From NCBI GenBank assembly GCA_030620115.1, contig JAUXFG010000073.1:1-18460 (forward strand): a stretch of 18,460 nucleotides of DNA. Reading direction: 5' to 3'. The DNA comes from Candidatus Fermentibacterota bacterium. Its GTDB lineage: Bacteria > JAFGKV01. This document shows positions 145 through 18,460 of the stretch, one piece after another (within the stretch, counting starts at the first letter, position 1; each line of letters begins with the position of its first letter). A program made the position numbers and the translations under genes. The notes beneath the pieces are model-generated. The model had not been told where the DNA came from. It searched no databases and saw nothing but the letters and a program-made list of their open reading frames with translations.

Positions 145-932
145 CTACAATGCAGAAAAGAATGGGCACAGGTCAATCGCCTTGCTACACAAGGTGAAAC
201 CCGGCTCCAAAACGGCTAAACTGTTACCATCGATGCATGTATTCCAGATCAAGCACGTTTCCTTGGACCTTAAGCACACCCCGAACATCGTTCCATTGAC
301 GCTCTGAATTCCCGCCCCAAATGCGATACCAGTAGAGTTTGTGCAGGATAATATCTTCAGCGCTGGCCAGATTGAACGACCGGCCTTGTTCCCGTCCTGC
401 GACAACGCCCTTCTCAGCTCTCTGAAAAGCCTGCTGGTCGTAACCCGCATTTCTCACCGGCCATCTGCTGCAACGCTGCATTTGGCCCTGCCTGCTGCGT
501 TACGCTCCTTCGGACTCCTCGACGTATCGCAGGGGATACGCCTGCGGGGTCCTCGGTCACAAGCCTTGCAGCCACAGCCAACTACACCGCTTCGCGACGA
601 AGGCCGGTGAGAAGTGCGGGCTAAGCGCCTCTCTTGAGCACGAAGATGTCGATCTTGAGCATGGTCGATAGATGGATGAGGTTGAAGGAGGCCAGACGTC
701 GAATGGCGTCCAGGATCATGTTGGCATCGATGTAGTAGTCCTTTTCGAGCGCCTCGACCAGAAGCCGAACATGGCTTGGTTCCAGGTCAGCGATCATGTC
801 GACGTCGAGCGTCGCACGAGGCAGGCCATGGGCTGAACTGGCTACTGAGCCTCCGATGAAGTACCCCACACCCAAGCGATCAAAGGCTTCCACTACAGGT
901 TCAAGAGCGAGAATGATGTCCGGCTTGCTCAA
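145..932 (-). pseudogene. MNT/AbiEii-type nucleotidyltransferase, split by a 179-bp element
   Basis: The N-terminal part (932 down to 621) is 103 residues from a TTG start. It contains GGSVASSAHGLPRATLDVD, the GGS-x-DVD signature of MNT-type nucleotidyltransferases, in which the Asp residues bind metal. Translation stops at a TAG whose TA is target DNA and whose G is the first base of an inserted element (443-621). The C-terminal part (440 down to 224) carries AFQRAEKG and EDIILHKLYWYR, typical of the family's second half. Removing the element plus one TA gives GCT TAC GAC, an uninterrupted reading frame of about 175 residues, so the insertion is the disrupting event. The restored frame then ends at TAA after MHRW. 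A shift of one base there opens a further 26 codons to 145, so a second frameshift is possible. The TTG start overlaps the TGA of the upstream gene, which suggests translational coupling. Whether the 103-residue fragment has any function is unknown. Confidence 0.75.
443..621. mobile_element. 179-bp MITE-like element, copy 1
   Basis: The left end reads ACCCGCATTTCTCACCGG and the right end CCGGTGAGAAGTGCGGGC, forming imperfect terminal inverted repeats of about 18 bp. TA dinucleotides flank it at 441-442 and 622-623, as expected of a TA target-site duplication in the IS630/Tc1/mariner style. There is no transposase reading frame, so it would have to be moved in trans. A second copy of exactly the same length and orientation lies at 17939-18117. 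The ends and a central block around GGATACGCCTGCGGG are the best conserved parts. It interrupts the nucleotidyltransferase gene. Confidence 0.85.
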
Positions 933-11477: not shown

Positions 11478-11540
11478 TATGAGAAGGCACGATCCGCCAG
11501 CCCGCGGATGCCCCTACATCGAAGCGCCCCACCTCCCCCA

Positions 11541-11579
11541 CCCAGATTCTTCGGTCACTCCCCTCCCTCAGAATGACAC
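11541..11579. repeat. 39-bp dispersed repeat (CCCAGATTCTTCGGTC unit), copy 1
   Basis: It begins CCCAGATTCTTCGGTC and ends CTCAGAATGACAC. By eye it matches 18415-18453 at 36 of 39 positions in the same orientation. From memory, sequences of this form occur as intergenic repeats in many bacteria. Confidence 0.85.
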
Positions 11580-11637
11580 GTCCTGTACGTCCAACACGAG
11601 CCATCAGCCAGAAAAATGTTGTATCTCTGGAGGGACG

Positions 11638-11653
11638 TCCGCCAGCTGGCGGA
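11638..11653. repeat. 16-bp perfect palindrome TCCGCCAGCTGGCGGA, copy 2 of 4
   Basis: This is identical to the palindrome at 1360-1375. It lies about 90 bp from the third copy. Confidence 0.9.
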
Positions 11654-11738: not shown

Positions 11739-11764
11739 ATGAATCCGCCAGCTGGCGGATTCAT
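11739..11764. repeat. 26-bp perfect palindrome containing copy 3 of the 16-mer
   Basis: The 13-base half ATGAATCCGCCAG is followed immediately by its exact reverse complement. The inner 16 bases (11744-11759) are TCCGCCAGCTGGCGGA. The outer five bases on each side are not shared with the other copies. Confidence 0.9.
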
Positions 11765-11947: not shown

Positions 11948-13237
11948 CTACTCACTCTCCAGTGAATAGCATATCACTTCCATGGGGGTCTCCTCTTCGT
12001 CTGTTTCCTCATCCTCTGAAGATACGCCCTGCTGGGAGAGAAATGCGTCCAGGGCGCCGGCCACCATCACCACCCTATCATCTCCCACGAAGTACAGCGC
12101 ATCCTCCCGAGCATTGCCGGGACAGCCAAGCGCTACTTGCTTTTTGAAATGGCCTGCGCTGTCGAACACATCGAGTACGGCCATTGCATTCTCAGGCAGT
12201 TCCTCGTCGCCCCGGCTCGTCCGCACCCAGATCTCACCGCTGGATGAAACCCGAATCTGCGCGATATCAGGCTCGGTATCTTCAATTCCCAGATCCCGAG
12301 GAGGCGCCGGGTAGTTACGCGCTACTGCCTCGAGGATCTGTCGCGCCACTTCTCTCTGTTCATCGTCCCGCGTGAGACTCTCATACTCCCTTGTAATCAT
12401 ACGCTCCAGCGTACCTTCTACACTGTAAATATCAATCTCATACTCGTTCCTAAACGGCACGACATAGAGCTTGCCATCCAGGCCCAAGGCACAGCGGCCC
12501 CACACAAAATCAAGGCCCTCCTCAGTGAGCACGAAGTCACTGTAGTTGATTGTGTTTTCCTTGCTGAAGTAACAGTGCTGCTCCACAGCCATTTCATCGC
12601 ATCGTGAGAGGAAATATGTCTGTCCATTCGTGCCATCCGTGTTGAATGTCATGCGGATCCCAGCAAGGACAAGGTTGCCGGCGCGGGATATTCCTTGGAG
12701 GAGCACGACAAACCTTCCCTGGCTCGGATCGCCGGAACCGAAGTTGAGGGCGCCGGAAGGGCTCCCATCGCGATTGACCTTGACTATCTTGCCCGGAAAC
12801 ATCTGCACCAGCCCGAGACTGCCATCTGGATGGAAGAACATGTCATTGGGATGCCGGATCTCCCCAGGACCATCTCCCTCGCGGCTCAGCGTCCTCAAGT
12901 GTTCACCGTCCGGCGAATAGACCGCCACCTCTGAAATCTGGCTGTCCATCAGGTAGATGTTGCCCTTTACATCGGCCAATACCTGCTGAATATTGCCGAA
13001 GAATACCTCGTCATCATCCCCGCCGGCGCGCCACTGTTCCGTGGCAGTCAGCGTCACCACTCCCTCGTCGGGCGTAGCGCCGTTGCGGATATAGGTTACT
13101 CCGTCGACGATCTCCTCCTGACCGGCGGCGACCGGCGTCCACCCCATGACAAGAAAGGTCATGCCCACAAACAACCAGGTTAGAAGCAAAAACCGACGGC
13201 GATTAGAGTATGAATAGGCAAATCTCGGAAACATCAT
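11948..13237 (-). CDS. exported six-bladed beta-propeller protein, paralogue 2
   Basis: This encodes 429 residues. A basic N-terminus (SNRRR) precedes a hydrophobic signal stretch (17-38), with likely cleavage after PVAA. The body has NHL/6-bladed-propeller features: GNIYLMDSQISEVAVYSPDGEH, then TLSREGDGPGEIRHPNDMF, then LGLVQMFPGKIVKVNRDG, and GLDGKLYVVPFRNEYEIDIYS. The motif GxGPGE followed by a blade is typical of Pfam-type 6-bladed propellers. The tail is acidic (DEETDEEET) and ends PMEVICYSLESE. It is clearly paralogous to the neighbour at 13443-14735 along its whole length. The start at MMF has GAGAGGAG 4-7 bases upstream. No enzymatic residues are recognised. A sensing or scaffold role in the periplasm or on the surface is an inference. 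It has several Cys (ACYS-type positions CDEM, EQHCYF, WGRCA, LGCPG), more than its paralogue. Confidence 0.88.
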   Translation of the reverse strand: MMFPRFAYSYSNRRRFLLLTWLFVGMTFLVMGWTPVAAGQEEIVDGVTYIRNGATPDEGVVTLTATEQWRAGGDDDEVFFGNIQQVLADVKGNIYLMDSQISEVAVYSPDGEHLRTLSREGDGPGEIRHPNDMFFHPDGSLGLVQMFPGKIVKVNRDGSPSGALNFGSGDPSQGRFVVLLQGISRAGNLVLAGIRMTFNTDGTNGQTYFLSRCDEMAVEQHCYFSKENTINYSDFVLTEEGLDFVWGRCALGLDGKLYVVPFRNEYEIDIYSVEGTLERMITREYESLTRDDEQREVARQILEAVARNYPAPPRDLGIEDTEPDIAQIRVSSSGEIWVRTSRGDEELPENAMAVLDVFDSAGHFKKQVALGCPGNAREDALYFVGDDRVVMVAGALDAFLSQQGVSSEDEETDEEETPMEVICYSLESE

Positions 13238-13442: not shown

Positions 13443-14735
13443 TCACTTCTTGATGGCGTAGCAGATGACTTCCATGGGCTCGGGCTCCTCCTCGTCATCG
13501 GATTCGGCGGCGCCTCCACCCTGGAGCGAGACAAGGGCATCCAGAAAGCCGGTCACTTGTATGATACGATCGTCGCCGCAGAAGATAAGCCCATCTCTGA
13601 CGCCATCGCCGTCGCATGGCACGGCAACCTGTTTGATGAAGTGGCCTTGCGGATCGAAGACGTCATAGGTCACCAAGATTCCTTCCGGCTGCTCTCGGTT
13701 GCTGCGGCTGTGCTGTACCCAGAGATTCCCATTAGGCGCAATGTGGAGACTGGAAATGGCCGGTTCGGTATCTTCAACCTTCGTTTCGACCTCCATTGGG
13801 ATCCTTCTCGTTTGCGCCTCCATCATGGAGTTGGCGCGAGCCAGATCTTCCTCTGTACGCTTCCAGTTCGTGAACTCCCGTGCGACGACCCTTTCTAGTG
13901 TCCCATCCGCCTTGTACACATGAATGGCATAGGAATCACGGAAAGGCGCCGCATGCACACGCCCATCCGGTCCCACGGCCCAATGCCTGAAGACGAAGTA
14001 CTGGTCTTTCTCGATCATCTTGAAATCTGCGAAATCCAGGATTGTTGTCTTCTCGATGTAGCGGACCTTCTCCTCGCCGTCGTTCGAGAAACTGGCCAGG
14101 AAATTGTTCATGGTTTGTGTACCCTGAGCCTGGTCCACACTCATCCTGATACCGCCCAATACCAGATTGTCGCCTTTCTGCTTCGCGTCGATCAGTATTG
14201 CGAAGCTACCCTGTGTCGGATCGTTGCCGCCTACGGTGAATGTGCCGGCAGGATTCCCCTCCAGGTCGAGTTTGACAATCTTCCCCGGGAACATCTGTAC
14301 CAAACCCAGGGTCCCATCCGGCAGGAACAGCATGTCAAAAGGATTGTTGGTTTCCCCCGGGCCTTCACCCTGGCGACTCAGTGTCTTTATTTGCTCGCCG
14401 TCCGGCGAGTAGACATAGACTTCGGAAAGCTGCGTGTCGAGCAAATAGATGTTGCCGGCGCTATCTGAGACGACTTGGGAAATGAGACCAAAGAACGTCT
14501 CATCGTCCTCTCCTCCTGCTCGCCACAGCTCTTCGAGTTGGAGAGTCTCGATGCCTTGGCTTGGGGTGGCGCCATTCTTGATATGGAGCACACCTTCCAC
14601 CGTGCTCTCGACCCCGGCACTGGCAATCCCGGAACCGAGCAGAAACACTGCCGCGAGCAGGGCCATGGAACGCCATGCGGCGTTCCCCCGGGGAATGGTT
14701 TCAACTTTAGTCGATGACTGAAGTACGCCTCTCAT
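13443..14735 (-). CDS. exported six-bladed beta-propeller protein, paralogue 1
   Basis: This encodes 430 residues from the ATG at 14735, chosen because AAAGGAGG lies 7 bases upstream. An extension to 14792 would place the start in a hairpin region. The signal peptide runs to about residue 40 (MALLAAVFLLGSGIASA). Propeller blades include GNIYLLDTQLSEVYVYSPDG, then TLSRQGEGPGETNNPFDMLF, then LGLVQMFPGKIVKLDLEG and GRVHAAPFRDSYAIHVYKADG. The C-terminus has an acidic linker (about 411-420) followed by PMEVICYAIKK. The 11948-13237 gene shares this architecture and tail. The order is 1 then 2 on minus with 205 bp between, so separate or attenuated expression is possible. No catalytic motif is recognised. 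It lies between the regulatory pair and the efflux operon on the same strand, though a functional link is unproven. Confidence 0.88.
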   Translation of the reverse strand: MRGVLQSSTKVETIPRGNAAWRSMALLAAVFLLGSGIASAGVESTVEGVLHIKNGATPSQGIETLQLEELWRAGGEDDETFFGLISQVVSDSAGNIYLLDTQLSEVYVYSPDGEQIKTLSRQGEGPGETNNPFDMLFLPDGTLGLVQMFPGKIVKLDLEGNPAGTFTVGGNDPTQGSFAILIDAKQKGDNLVLGGIRMSVDQAQGTQTMNNFLASFSNDGEEKVRYIEKTTILDFADFKMIEKDQYFVFRHWAVGPDGRVHAAPFRDSYAIHVYKADGTLERVVAREFTNWKRTEEDLARANSMMEAQTRRIPMEVETKVEDTEPAISSLHIAPNGNLWVQHSRSNREQPEGILVTYDVFDPQGHFIKQVAVPCDGDGVRDGLIFCGDDRIIQVTGFLDALVSLQGGGAAESDDEEEPEPMEVICYAIKK

Positions 14736-14779
14736 GGGCGGTCCTCCTTTGAGAGAAATACAGGATGTGGGGATCTGTC

Positions 14780-14809
14780 GTCCCGCACCCAACGCTTTGG
14801 GTACGGGAC
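14780..14809. repeat. imperfect GC-rich hairpin in the leader of propeller 1
   Basis: GTCCCGCACCCAA pairs with TTTGGGTACGGGAC across a short loop, 12 of 14 positions by eye. It lies 45-75 bases upstream of the start codon. It could be an operator, an mRNA stabilising hairpin or repeat remnant. A CTGTC precedes it and GACAG overlaps its end, weakly echoing the TGTCC/GGACA site near 18256. Confidence 0.5.
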
Positions 14810-14824
14810 AGTCTCAACCATCTC

Positions 14825-14863
14825 GCCCGTTTCTCTGCCAAAACCGGTGAGAAATCAGGGCTA
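14825..14863. mobile_element. probable remnant of the 179-bp element
   Basis: The right half, CCGGTGAGAAATCAGGGCTA (14844-14863), matches the right end plus TA of the 179-bp element at 17 of 20 positions. The left half, GCCCGTTTCTCTGCC, resembles the element's left end with small gaps. The interior is missing, leaving only the two ends joined by AAAA. An ancient internally deleted copy is the simplest reading. Chance similarity of so short a piece is possible. Confidence 0.45.
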
Positions 14864-15112: not shown

Positions 15113-16480
15113 TCACATCGCCTGCAATGAATATACCCGTTCCGGCGAGGTTTCGGAAATGCTGTCACGCGTGTTGAAATCGATGAAGAAGCGTGTCGGG
15201 CCATCTGGAGGTGACTCAAGGTCGAAGTCAAAGCCGTGGAGAGTGAGAACTTGATGGGCCAAGGTCAGACCAACGCCCTGCCCGTGGCTCTTGGTGGTGA
15301 AGAAGGGGGAGAAGAGATTGGCCTGCGCCTCGGGGCTCAAGCCGGGTCCGCTGTCTTCCACCGCAGCGAAGAAGCGACCATTCGATACACCGGCATGGAT
15401 TTCAATGTGTCCGTCATAGTCGATGGCCTCCACCGCATTCTGCACTACGCTCACAAACACCTGCTCCATTTGGACGGCATCCATTGCTATTGGCTCGATA
15501 TAGTCCTCCAAGACAAGCCTGAGATCAATCCCCCTGCGGGCACACTCAGGCTCCATGAGGCGTACGACCCGAGAGAGTATCTGTCCGAGATCCACTGGGC
15601 GAAGCACCGGGGGTGGCACACGAACCACGTCGGCATACTTCCGCATGAAGAGGTTGAGGTTATCGGTACTCCGGATGGCGACATGCAGAGCCGTGTTGAT
15701 ATCTTCCCTCTCCTCACTGCTGAGTTGATCACCATAGACCAATGCTGAGTGGAGAATGGAATTGGTCGCCCCCACCGTGTTGTTGATCTCGTGTGACAGG
15801 GTCCTGATTAACGACTCATACGCGAACCTTTCGGTAGCCCATAGCTCATGGGTGAGGTCATCGATCACAAAGAAGCTTCGAGGGGAGCCGCCTTCATCAA
15901 GCTCGGAGTGCGTGAATCTGAGACGGCGCCGACAATGCCGGCCGAGAAGCCGCGATTCCCCTTTCGGTACCGCGCTCAGCTGACGAATGAGCGGTGAGGT
16001 AAGCTCTGAGAGCACCTTTCCCGTGATCTCCTCAGGCGAGATATCGAGCAGACGGACTGCCGCAGGGCTGACATCACAGATGCGACCGCCATGATCCGTG
16101 ATAATGATTCCCGAAGGAGAGGCATTCATGGCCTTGCGCACGAGAATATCCTGCTCCTCCAAGCGCGTCCGTTCCTGTCGGAGGCGGGTGACCATCTCGC
16201 TGTGAAGGCCAATGAACTCGTCAATGTCGGAAAGACCGGTCCGTCGAAAACGATGGGTCAAATCCCCATCCCTGAGCCACCTTAGCCCCAGATTCACCAT
16301 CTGTCCGGGCACACGAAGTGCCCGGAGCATAAGGCACATCGACGCCAGTGACGCCGGCACGGCAATCGCCAGGACGAGTATCCACAGCCGGTGATCCTGC
16401 CACAAGAGGAGCCCGACGACGCCGCCACATAAGAGGTGGAGCAAGACCAGATACCCCGTGAAGATACGCTGAATTGTCAT
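15113..16480 (-). CDS. PAS-containing membrane sensor histidine kinase
   Basis: This encodes 455 residues. Two membrane helices (about 6-27 and 32-53) are joined by only about five residues, so there is essentially no extracytoplasmic sensor. A HAMP-like segment follows (about 60-105), then a PAS domain (about 110-205: NASPSGIIITDHGGRICDVSPAA). The phospho-acceptor motif LSHEINNTVG has H230. The ATPase N box is VVQNAVEAI (N348), the G1 box VEDSGPGLS (D376), the F box FSPFFTTK, and the G2 box GQGVGLTL. The HEINNT form is like NtrB/AtoS-type kinases that pair with NtrC-family regulators. The ATG overlaps the regulator's TGA (ATGA), showing co-translation. A longer in-frame extension upstream only overlaps the regulator gene. 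The signal is unknown, but a membrane or cytoplasmic cue fits the missing loop. Confidence 0.93.
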   Translation of the reverse strand: MTIQRIFTGYLVLLHLLCGGVVGLLLWQDHRLWILVLAIAVPASLASMCLMLRALRVPGQMVNLGLRWLRDGDLTHRFRRTGLSDIDEFIGLHSEMVTRLRQERTRLEEQDILVRKAMNASPSGIIITDHGGRICDVSPAAVRLLDISPEEITGKVLSELTSPLIRQLSAVPKGESRLLGRHCRRRLRFTHSELDEGGSPRSFFVIDDLTHELWATERFAYESLIRTLSHEINNTVGATNSILHSALVYGDQLSSEEREDINTALHVAIRSTDNLNLFMRKYADVVRVPPPVLRPVDLGQILSRVVRLMEPECARRGIDLRLVLEDYIEPIAMDAVQMEQVFVSVVQNAVEAIDYDGHIEIHAGVSNGRFFAAVEDSGPGLSPEAQANLFSPFFTTKSHGQGVGLTLAHQVLTLHGFDFDLESPPDGPTRFFIDFNTRDSISETSPERVYSLQAM

Positions 16481-17883
16481 GGAACTATCCGATGTTTCTC
16501 CAAACGGCGGTAAAGCGCTCCGCGGCTCAGGCCCAGAGCGGTGGCTGCCCTTGAAACATTGCCTCCATACTCCTTCAACGAGCGCAGGATCATTTCGCGT
16601 TCCATCTCGTCCAGCGTCACTCTCCCCGGTTGAGGAACCATTCCTTTGGTCGGTTCCTTCTCCTGCATGTGTGCGGCCATGTCGAAATCCTCCGCTCTCA
16701 GCGAATTCCGCGGCGTGAGAAGGATGGTACGCTCCACGAGATGTTTCAGCTGTCGAACATTGCCGGGCCATTCCTGAACAATGAGCCAATCCATGGCGTC
16801 TGGGGAGATCTCGAGATCAGGACGCCGGTATATCCCACCAATACAATGCAGGAAGTGCGCGGCCAAGGCCGGAATGTCGCCTTTTCGTTCCCTGAGAGGC
16901 GGCATGTGCACCACGATCAAATTGAGGCGATAGAGAAGATCCTCACGGAAGCTTCCTGTCTCAATCATGGAGACAAGATCCTGGTTTGTTGCGGAGATGA
17001 CCCTGACATTCACCGTTCTGCTCGTGCTCGACCCAACGCGCTCAAAGGTTCGATCTTGCAGTACCCTGAGCAGCTTCACCTGGCAGCTGATGTCGAGATC
17101 CCCTATTTCGTCGAGAAAAATCGTGCCCTCATCCGCAGCCTCGAAGCGTCCAATGCGCGACTGCCGCGCATCAGTAAAGGCGCCCTTCACATGCCCAAAG
17201 AGCTCGCTCTCGAACAACGAGGTTGGAATACCGCCAAGGTTGACCTTGACGAATGGATGTTCCTTGCGCGCACTGTTGCGCCATAGCGCTTCAGCGACCA
17301 GTTCCTTCCCCGTGCCGCTCTCACCGGTAATCAACACCGGCGCATCGGTCGCAGCCACGCGCCCTATAACCTCCAGCATGCGCACGAACCGTGGATCTTT
17401 GCCTATGAGACCCGAGAAATCGTGGACGGCATCGAGTTCTGCTCGACTCATGGGGGCCGTGGTGGCTTCCGTCCTACGGAACTCGGCAAGCCCCAGAGCT
17501 GTTTGGACCGACTGACGAATCTGCTCATGAGTCCACGGCTTTGTAATGAAATCAATGGCGCCCGCCTTCACGCCCCTTACCGCAAGTTCAACCGATCCCC
17601 ACGCAGTGATAAGAACCACCGGCAGGTGTGGGTATCTCCCCTTGATTCGTTGGAGAAGCACCAGCCCCTCTTCCCCCGTGGTGCTGCGAGAGAAATTCAT
17701 GTCCTGGAGCGCCAAAGCAAATGGCCGTTCACCCAAGGTCTGGAGTGCCTCTTCGGGATTGGAGGCGGTATATGGGGCATAGCCTGACTGCTTGAGTAAC
17801 AGCGCCAGCGAAGTGGTCACCGCGTCGTCATCATCAATGATCAGCACATTCCGCGTGTCTGTGTTATCGATCATGGTAGGCAT
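16477..17883 (-). CDS. sigma54-dependent NtrC-family response regulator
   Basis: This encodes 468 residues. The receiver domain (about 12-130) has acidic DDDD at 17-20, phospho-acceptor D61 in LQDMNFSR, T93 and K115. The AAA+ domain (about 155-385) has Walker A GESGTGKE (187-194), the sigma54-contacting loop GAFTDA (234-239) and Walker B GTIFLDEIGD (253-262). The C-terminal Fis-type helix-turn-helix (about 425-465) includes GGNVSRAATALGLSRGALYRR. All residues needed for activation look intact. The start at 17883 follows GGAGAGGAG, whereas a longer frame to 17898 begins with TTG inside that ribosome site. It is first in a two-gene operon with the kinase. A -24/-12 promoter with an upstream inverted repeat lies at 18182-18264, suggesting positive autoregulation. 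The MNFSRxTTGEEGL form is typical of regulators that control transporter operons in FCB bacteria (recalled, not tested). Confidence 0.95.
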   Translation of the reverse strand: MPTMIDNTDTRNVLIIDDDDAVTTSLALLLKQSGYAPYTASNPEEALQTLGERPFALALQDMNFSRSTTGEEGLVLLQRIKGRYPHLPVVLITAWGSVELAVRGVKAGAIDFITKPWTHEQIRQSVQTALGLAEFRRTEATTAPMSRAELDAVHDFSGLIGKDPRFVRMLEVIGRVAATDAPVLITGESGTGKELVAEALWRNSARKEHPFVKVNLGGIPTSLFESELFGHVKGAFTDARQSRIGRFEAADEGTIFLDEIGDLDISCQVKLLRVLQDRTFERVGSSTSRTVNVRVISATNQDLVSMIETGSFREDLLYRLNLIVVHMPPLRERKGDIPALAAHFLHCIGGIYRRPDLEISPDAMDWLIVQEWPGNVRQLKHLVERTILLTPRNSLRAEDFDMAAHMQEKEPTKGMVPQPGRVTLDEMEREMILRSLKEYGGNVSRAATALGLSRGALYRRLEKHRIVP

Positions 17884-17938
17884 GTATCTCCTCTCCAAAT
17901 GGAGAACCTACGTCCGCTCACTCTCCAATATCCACTTA

Positions 17939-18117
17939 GCCCGCATTTCTCACCGACTTTCGGCTGAAGCAGCCGATATGGCACTGCCTGCTTCGTTACG
18001 CTCTGTCGGCTTCCTCGCCGTATCACAGAGGATACGCCTGCGGGATCCTCAGTCGCAAGCCTCGCATTCAGAACCATCTCGGCGCCTTCGCTTCGAAACC
18101 CGGTGAGAAGTGCGGGC
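17939..18117. mobile_element. 179-bp MITE-like element, copy 2
   Basis: The left end is GCCCGCATTTCTCACCG and the right end CGGTGAGAAGTGCGGGC, near-perfect inverted repeats. TA at 17937-17938 and 18118-18119 flanks it. Length and orientation equal those of copy 1 at 443-621, with clear divergence in the interior. It lies 55 bp upstream of the response regulator start, inside the predicted leader of the regulator operon. No coding potential of its own is evident. Confidence 0.85.
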
Positions 18118-18181
18118 TAGCGATCGGGACCCAGGATACTATACTATGCCGAGCACTTGGAACCCTCCAATCTCTTGCCCC

Positions 18182-18197
18182 TGCAAGGTGTATGCCG
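18182..18197 (-). promoter_or_regulatory. sigma54 (-24/-12) promoter of the regulator operon
   Basis: On minus the sequence CGGCATACACCTTGCA matches the consensus YTGGCAC-N5-TTGCW closely. GG (18196-18195) and GC (18184-18183) are exactly 10 bases apart, and TTGCA is complete. Transcription would begin near 18171 and run leftward through the 179-bp element into the regulator gene. This fits a regulator that itself activates sigma54 RNA polymerase. Confidence 0.65.
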
Positions 18198-18248
18198 GAC
18201 CGAAAAGTCTTCGTCATGGCACGATAGCGCCGTCCAATCAAACACATG

Positions 18249-18264
18249 TGTCCGAAAATGGACA
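18249..18264. promoter_or_regulatory. inverted repeat TGTCCGAAAATGGACA, likely activator site
   Basis: Perfect 5-bp arms TGTCC and GGACA flank GAAAAT. The centre lies about 85 bp upstream of the predicted sigma54 start, in the usual range for enhancer-binding proteins. The TGTC-spacer-GACA form resembles the site reported for the GlrR group (TGTC N10 GACA) but with an 8-base spacer. It is the obvious candidate binding site of the adjacent regulator. Confidence 0.55.
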
Positions 18265-18372: not shown

Positions 18373-18388
18373 TCCGCCAGCTGGCGGA
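18373..18388. repeat. 16-bp perfect palindrome TCCGCCAGCTGGCGGA, copy 4 of 4
   Basis: Identical to the other three copies. Here it lies 26 bp before the second copy of the 39-bp dispersed repeat, as in the 11541-11653 cluster where the two also lie close together. Confidence 0.9.
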
Positions 18389-18414
18389 TTCAATGTTCAA
18401 TCCCCCCCTCCCCA

Positions 18415-18453
18415 CCCAGATTCTTCGGTCGCTTCGCTCCCTCAGAATGACAC
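18415..18453. repeat. 39-bp dispersed repeat, copy 2
   Basis: Same unit and orientation as 11541-11579, differing at three positions by eye. Within it GGTCGCTTCGCTCC shows the GAAGCGA-type core seen in many intergenic repeats. Confidence 0.85.
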
Positions 18454-18460
18454 CTATTGT

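Follow-up and report, generated by a model that had tools for sequence, protein, structure and literature searches.

The window, by which we mean the whole analysed stretch of 18,460 nt, carries on its reverse strand a two-component system composed of a sigma-54-dependent response regulator gene and a sensor histidine kinase gene (Table 1). In the direction of transcription the operator (18264-18249) is followed by a sigma-54 -24/-12 site, the predicted start, a MITE-like palindromic element, a ribosome binding site and the regulator ATG at 17883. Operator, promoter, element and ATG had been listed in this order in the first-pass annotation, at coordinates that were exact or nearly so. Both reading frames are intact, and since the kinase ATG (16480) shares the sequence ATGA with the stop codon of the regulator gene, the two genes are probably read from one transcript.

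Orthologues of the regulator were 61-68% identical. With its receiver, AAA+ and Fis HTH domains, its paired kinase and an upstream palindrome (here ~85 nt before the predicted start), the regulator resembles autogenous sigma-54 regulators of the NtrC/ZraR/AtoC type, but it scored under the equivalog cut-offs of the NCBIfam models listed. Two tandem paralogous beta-propeller (DUF5128) genes, at window positions 11948-13237 and 13443-14792, sit between the two-component genes and the genes for an HlyD-type adaptor and two RND pumps.

Table 1. Features of the two-component locus and copies of the palindromic element in the window.
Feature	Coordinates	Strand	Basis and remarks
Palindromic operator TGTCC-N6-GGACA, TGTCCATTTTCGGACA	18249..18264		Predicted target of the regulator; centre ~85 nt 5' of the predicted start
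Sigma-54 -24/-12 promoter, CCGGCATACACCTTGCA	18182..18198	-	Top consensus score of the window; genome has rpoN
Predicted transcription start	18171	-	Placed by the spacing from the -12 GC
MITE-like palindromic element, copy 2	17937..18119	-	nhmmer limits, fold, covariation; 183 nt, TA at each end
Ribosome binding site of the regulator, GGAGAGGAGA	17887..17896	-	Sequence; AGGAG at 17892-17888
Sigma-54-dependent response regulator	16477..17883	-	Pfam: receiver, AAA+, Fis HTH
Sensor histidine kinase	15113..16480	-	PAS and HATPase_c domains
Third element copy, 57-nt end fragment	14807..14863		3' of the kinase gene; nhmmer E 6e-8
Element copy 1	441..623	+	78% identical to copy 2

Operator and sigma-54 promoter

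The pattern TGTCC-N6-GGACA matched once in the window and seven times in the 4.1 Mb genome, compared to two matches of the reversed pattern. The spacing from this operator to the sigma-54 site is 66 bp. The site itself scored 0.93 against YTGGCAYRNNNNTTGCW, which was the maximum over all window positions on both strands, and scores of at least 0.93 were reached at ~9 per 668,000 positions of this genome. It reads GG-N10-GC at -24/-12, with one consensus mismatch, located in the -24 TGG. The chance of finding a site of this kind in the correct orientation, 40-110 nt from such an operator and in this intergenic region, was calculated arithmetically to be far below 1e-4. A start at 18171, as proposed in the first-pass annotation, is right for this sigma-54 site, being predicted 12 nt after the GC.

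Similar palindromes were located 46-69 bp 5' of sigma-54 sites at orthologous regulators of Bacteroidota (L185, TGTCCGATATCGGACA, 59 bp; L186, TGTCCGAAAACGAACA, 46 bp; L188, L196 and L202 likewise). A second operator/sigma-54 pair was identified in the genome under study, at L254 (G000:C160:30332), where the palindrome lies 86 bp before TCGGCATGCAGCTTGCT. This pair precedes a gene which, named from its sequence, reads as an ECF sigma factor, with a predicted leader of 108 nt, and the gene is probably another target of the regulator. Because the operator/promoter pair recurs and rpoN is present (one match in this genome), the regulator would most likely activate an ECF sigma gene in addition to its own gene. 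The Bacteroidota orthologues and the recurrence before the ECF sigma gene provide independent support for the predicted operator and promoter, and this part of the earlier reading is stronger than could be known from the window sequence. TGTCC-N6-GGACA can be taken as a testable operator of sigma-54 response regulators that form a widespread group.

A comparison of the promoter-to-ATG distance with relatives, which had been suggested as a check, turned out to be uninformative, as the promoters of orthologues could not be aligned, G001 had a different repeat and other sites were coding. No alignable promoter was found at the two same-family orthologues. In G001 (sister genus), two tandem copies of that genome's own multicopy repeat (L023:3112-3411, corresponding to G001:C129:5283-5582) lie ~230 nt 5' of the orthologous regulator and the contig ends inside these repeats; G002 has no recognisable sigma-54 site. 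Sigma-54-like sites near L173, L174 and L179 were rejected, as they consist of codons for the C-terminal PAxALH of an upstream permease gene. Translated in the permease frame, the window site would give PAYTLQ, with a stop just upstream and a remainder unlike the permease end.

Palindromic element

The first-pass annotation had placed copy 2 of the element correctly, but its limits of 17939-18117 omitted the terminal TA of each end, and the exact limits determined with nhmmer are those of Table 1. The element starts with TAGCCCGCA and finishes with TGCGGGCTA, is non-coding and is self-complementary over its whole length. Searching its own genome returned hundreds of candidate copies. When up to 2 mismatches were allowed, the terminal 16-mer was found 335 times, with a control count of 0. 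As the 16-mer pattern captured ~55% of the termini in copies recovered by similarity, the number of copies was roughly estimated at ~300. In total, 67 full copies were extracted, for which 183 and 195 nt were the most frequent lengths, and the majority had TA at the start and end; no empty TA site was found in a close relative. The closest sibling of copy 2 in the genome is 90% identical, and the insertion of copy 2 is therefore not recent.

The element represents an uncharacterised family within a known kind of repeat, the high-copy dispersed MITE-like palindrome. We use the label MITE-like instead of MITE because no enzyme that could mobilise it in trans was found when the genome was searched for DDE_3 and Y1_Tnp and the fetched loci for pairs of ends enclosing a transposase. 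An IS630-type transposase was rejected as mobiliser, as the genome contained no DDE_3. A RAYT-type mobiliser, as in REP/REPIN systems whose repeats flank the Y1_Tnp gene, was also rejected, with four Y1_Tnp genes present and only weak and partial element matches nearby. Two element ends are separated by 886 nt in L134 and by 1097 nt in L095, and both pairs were discarded when the enclosed ORFs showed no obvious transposase.

At L095:599-1701, an element copy is interrupted by ~900 nt of unrelated sequence in which no transposase ORF was seen. Copies nested in copies were observed in L034, L039, L040, L046 and L049, at the same internal point and with similar junctions, and look as if the composite itself had multiplied. 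In the fetched loci, among open frames that enter the element and are 160 aa or longer, 12 were in the phase of its TAR, against 7 and 2 for the other phases. The TAR would act as a stop codon there, which is no more than suggestive of an insertion preference for stop codons. Neither the element nor its core was detected in phages, plasmids or viral contigs at the sensitivity used.

Folding of the transcribed-strand RNA of copy 2 gave -98.7 kcal/mol in comparison to -65.0 +/- 4.3 kcal/mol for shuffles (z -7.8). The end-to-end hairpin was present in 31/31 aligned exact 183-nt copies. On the transcribed strand of these copies, 90% of cells were paired, a percentage inflated by the structure having been derived from the same 31 sequences, and 25 of the 70 pairs showed two-sided changes. 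The derivation alone does not explain the double changes: 114 cells were doubly changed, compared to 49 in shuffles, with 0 of 500 shuffles reaching 114, and shifting the partners by 1-3 columns left at most 30 doubly changed cells. Because related copies share changes, the number of change events is lower than the number of cells. A comparison with Rfam gave no match at gathering score, and one chance-level hit (E 1.1) fell outside the element.

Among known repeats, the Correia element (CREE/NEMIS) shares with the present one the form of a short palindromic repeat with >100 copies, the lack of a transposase gene and a hairpin, transcribed there and predicted to be so here, between native promoter and genes (PMC2649163). 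Its target is TA, as is probably the case for the present element. The Correia element differs in sequence, which is unrelated as far as seen, and in having paired ends around a core, whereas the element described here pairs end to end over 183 nt. In addition, the present element lies behind a sigma-54 promoter, RNase III cutting is predicted here, and unlike in Correia elements no promoter-like ends were found by scanning it. ERIC of Enterobacteriaceae is likewise a palindromic repeat of >100 nt, intergenic and with tens to hundreds of copies per genome (PMC10969869), but has another sequence and host group; a mobilising enzyme is not known for either. Palindromic multicopy sequences are also reported from Geobacter, e.g. 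a family with the centre GRCGTAGCGCTGCTACGCC that comprises 24 predicted RNA elements (PMC2700814). These are multicopy and intergenic too, with a palindromic centre of vaguely similar CGTA...TACG form, a likeness by form and not by alignment which we take as a lead only.

The element in the predicted regulator leader

The proposal of the first-pass annotation that the element is transcribed as a structured leader is supported by the anatomy of the region, the conserved operator/promoter arrangement, the rpoN gene and the absence of a sigma-70-like site. According to the sequence of events that we propose, the phosphorylated regulator would bind TGTCC-N6-GGACA and activate the -24/-12 site, giving autoregulated transcription of regulator and kinase. 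A non-autonomous, TA-targeting MITE-like element would have been inserted, not recently, into a leader of ~107 nt, and would now be transcribed as a self-contained 183-nt hairpin within a leader of ~288 nt. RNase III would cut the hairpin, parting the leader from the coding portion, and translation would begin at the downstream ribosome site, which the hairpin would leave unmasked. Overall, the two-component system would be little affected, and the insertion would be tolerated, not retained as a switch.

Based on predicted starts, the leader measures ~288 nt with and ~107 nt without the element, and the leader of the ECF gene with the like operator/promoter pair ~108 nt. The ancestral leader is not seen directly, because no orthologue shows the same promoter. 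The locus offers a clean natural example of a regulator mRNA whose leader contains a palindromic repeat and whose leader length before insertion is suggested by a second gene.

The element hairpin was predicted to fold independently of the rest of the leader. The predicted unpaired probability of AGGAG was 0.53 with the element and 0.64 without, and that of the AUG 0.25 with and 0.10 without, fold-based accessibility being a weak predictor. The hairpin is not followed by a U-run in the sequence. The genome contains an RNase III gene, and by analogy the leader hairpin is probably cut by this enzyme.

The first-pass annotation had offered two outcomes, altered expression of the two-component system or a neutral spacer. 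The evidence leans to the second, in the form of a tolerated spacer that is probably cut by RNase III, given the self-folding hairpin, the little changed pairing of the Shine-Dalgarno sequence, the age of the insertion and the intact frames. We consider it somewhat better than an even chance that the regulator mRNA carries the element in its leader and that the insertion is mostly tolerated, with a small net effect. Tolerance is favoured because the ribosome site looks unaffected, and because both frames are intact in spite of the insertion not being recent.

Less probable, at roughly one chance in four, is that the element materially sets the level of regulator and kinase, upwards or downwards, through RNase III cutting or an effect of the hairpin on mRNA stability. 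Such a regulatory effect is a serious rival because the Correia element in the mtrCDE operon of N. meningitidis, which is inserted after the native promoter and ahead of the genes and whose transcript is an RNase III substrate, did change regulation (PMC2649163). The arrangement in the window therefore has a published parallel, with the same architecture of a palindromic MITE between native promoter and genes, and both a stable full-length hairpin and an RNase III gene are present here. Against a level-setting role, the accessibility of the ribosome site was barely altered in silico, and copies of the element occupy divergent, co-directional and convergent gaps without orientation preference, as would be expected if insertions are tolerated. 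A literature search for MITEs in sigma-54 leaders returned no relevant paper.

We regard it as unlikely that transcription starts 3' of the element or from another upstream promoter, so that the element is not, or not mainly, in the leader. The start at 18171 is itself a predicted one, the contig end at 18460 hides any promoters or genes further upstream, and several orthologous regulators directly follow a permease gene. However, a scan for sigma-70-like sites found none between the element and the gene or elsewhere in the region, and the operator/promoter pair is supported by its recurrence.

Possible selection on the hairpin, and related repeats

Compensatory changes in a high-copy repeat raise the question of whether an RNA or a DNA step selects the hairpin. 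The analysis was based on the premise that selection on the RNA of one strand should give more G-U than A-C on that strand. Counting nearest-neighbour changes, the G-U to A-C ratio on the transcribed strand was 73:29 for all pairs and 16:9 for the strictest set (pairs at least 90% Watson-Crick). The orientation of the element relative to genes with a copy on their 5' side was 36:33, where genes were called by long ORFs only and some ORFs are likely to be spurious. Strand-specific selection on RNA was rejected, as the excess of G-U over A-C was not robust. Because this excess shrinks and orientation is balanced, a palindrome selected at the DNA level, in transposition or repair, is favoured.

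A reading of the element as a structured regulatory RNA that is specific to one strand and has a functional leader position is very improbable in spite of the strong covariation and the G-U excess over all pairs, since this excess falls in the strictest set, the pairs were picked by folding that very strand, gene orientation is unbiased, no Rfam family was matched, and a transposing DNA that requires the hairpin or template-switch repair would also yield compensatory changes.

The element was absent from the two same-family genomes, whose own palindromic repeat, of ~170 nt, is a different one. The apical hairpin TATC-RCAGMG-GATA also fits this repeat and the remainder does not align; homology of the two is unproven. 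When 386 genomes were searched for the 30-nt core, it was counted 85 times in G000, 35 times in G037 and 6 times in G259, and near chance level elsewhere. G037, related at the level of domain only, contains a similar 180-nt palindromic repeat (L011-L018), in which the central 30-nt core is common and the outer stems differ. Little probability is given to the wider picture of a family of covarying palindromes that crosses phyla, conserving one apical core through turnover of the outer stems, with an unknown mobiliser that requires the hairpin and with activator synthesis at the present locus dependent on RNase III.

Two further repeats were observed in the window. The small perfect palindrome TCCGCCAGCTGGCGGA is located at 1360-1375, 11638-11653, 11744-11759 and 18373-18388 and has >100 copies in the genome (TCCGCCAGCNGGCGGA, 136 matches on each strand, control 0). 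It was also found inserted within the large element, and a C-variant inside the repeat of the sister genomes. A 59-nt repeat, CAGATTCTTCGGTC...CCTCAGAATGACA, occupies 11528-11586 and 18402-18460, and the contig terminates in it.
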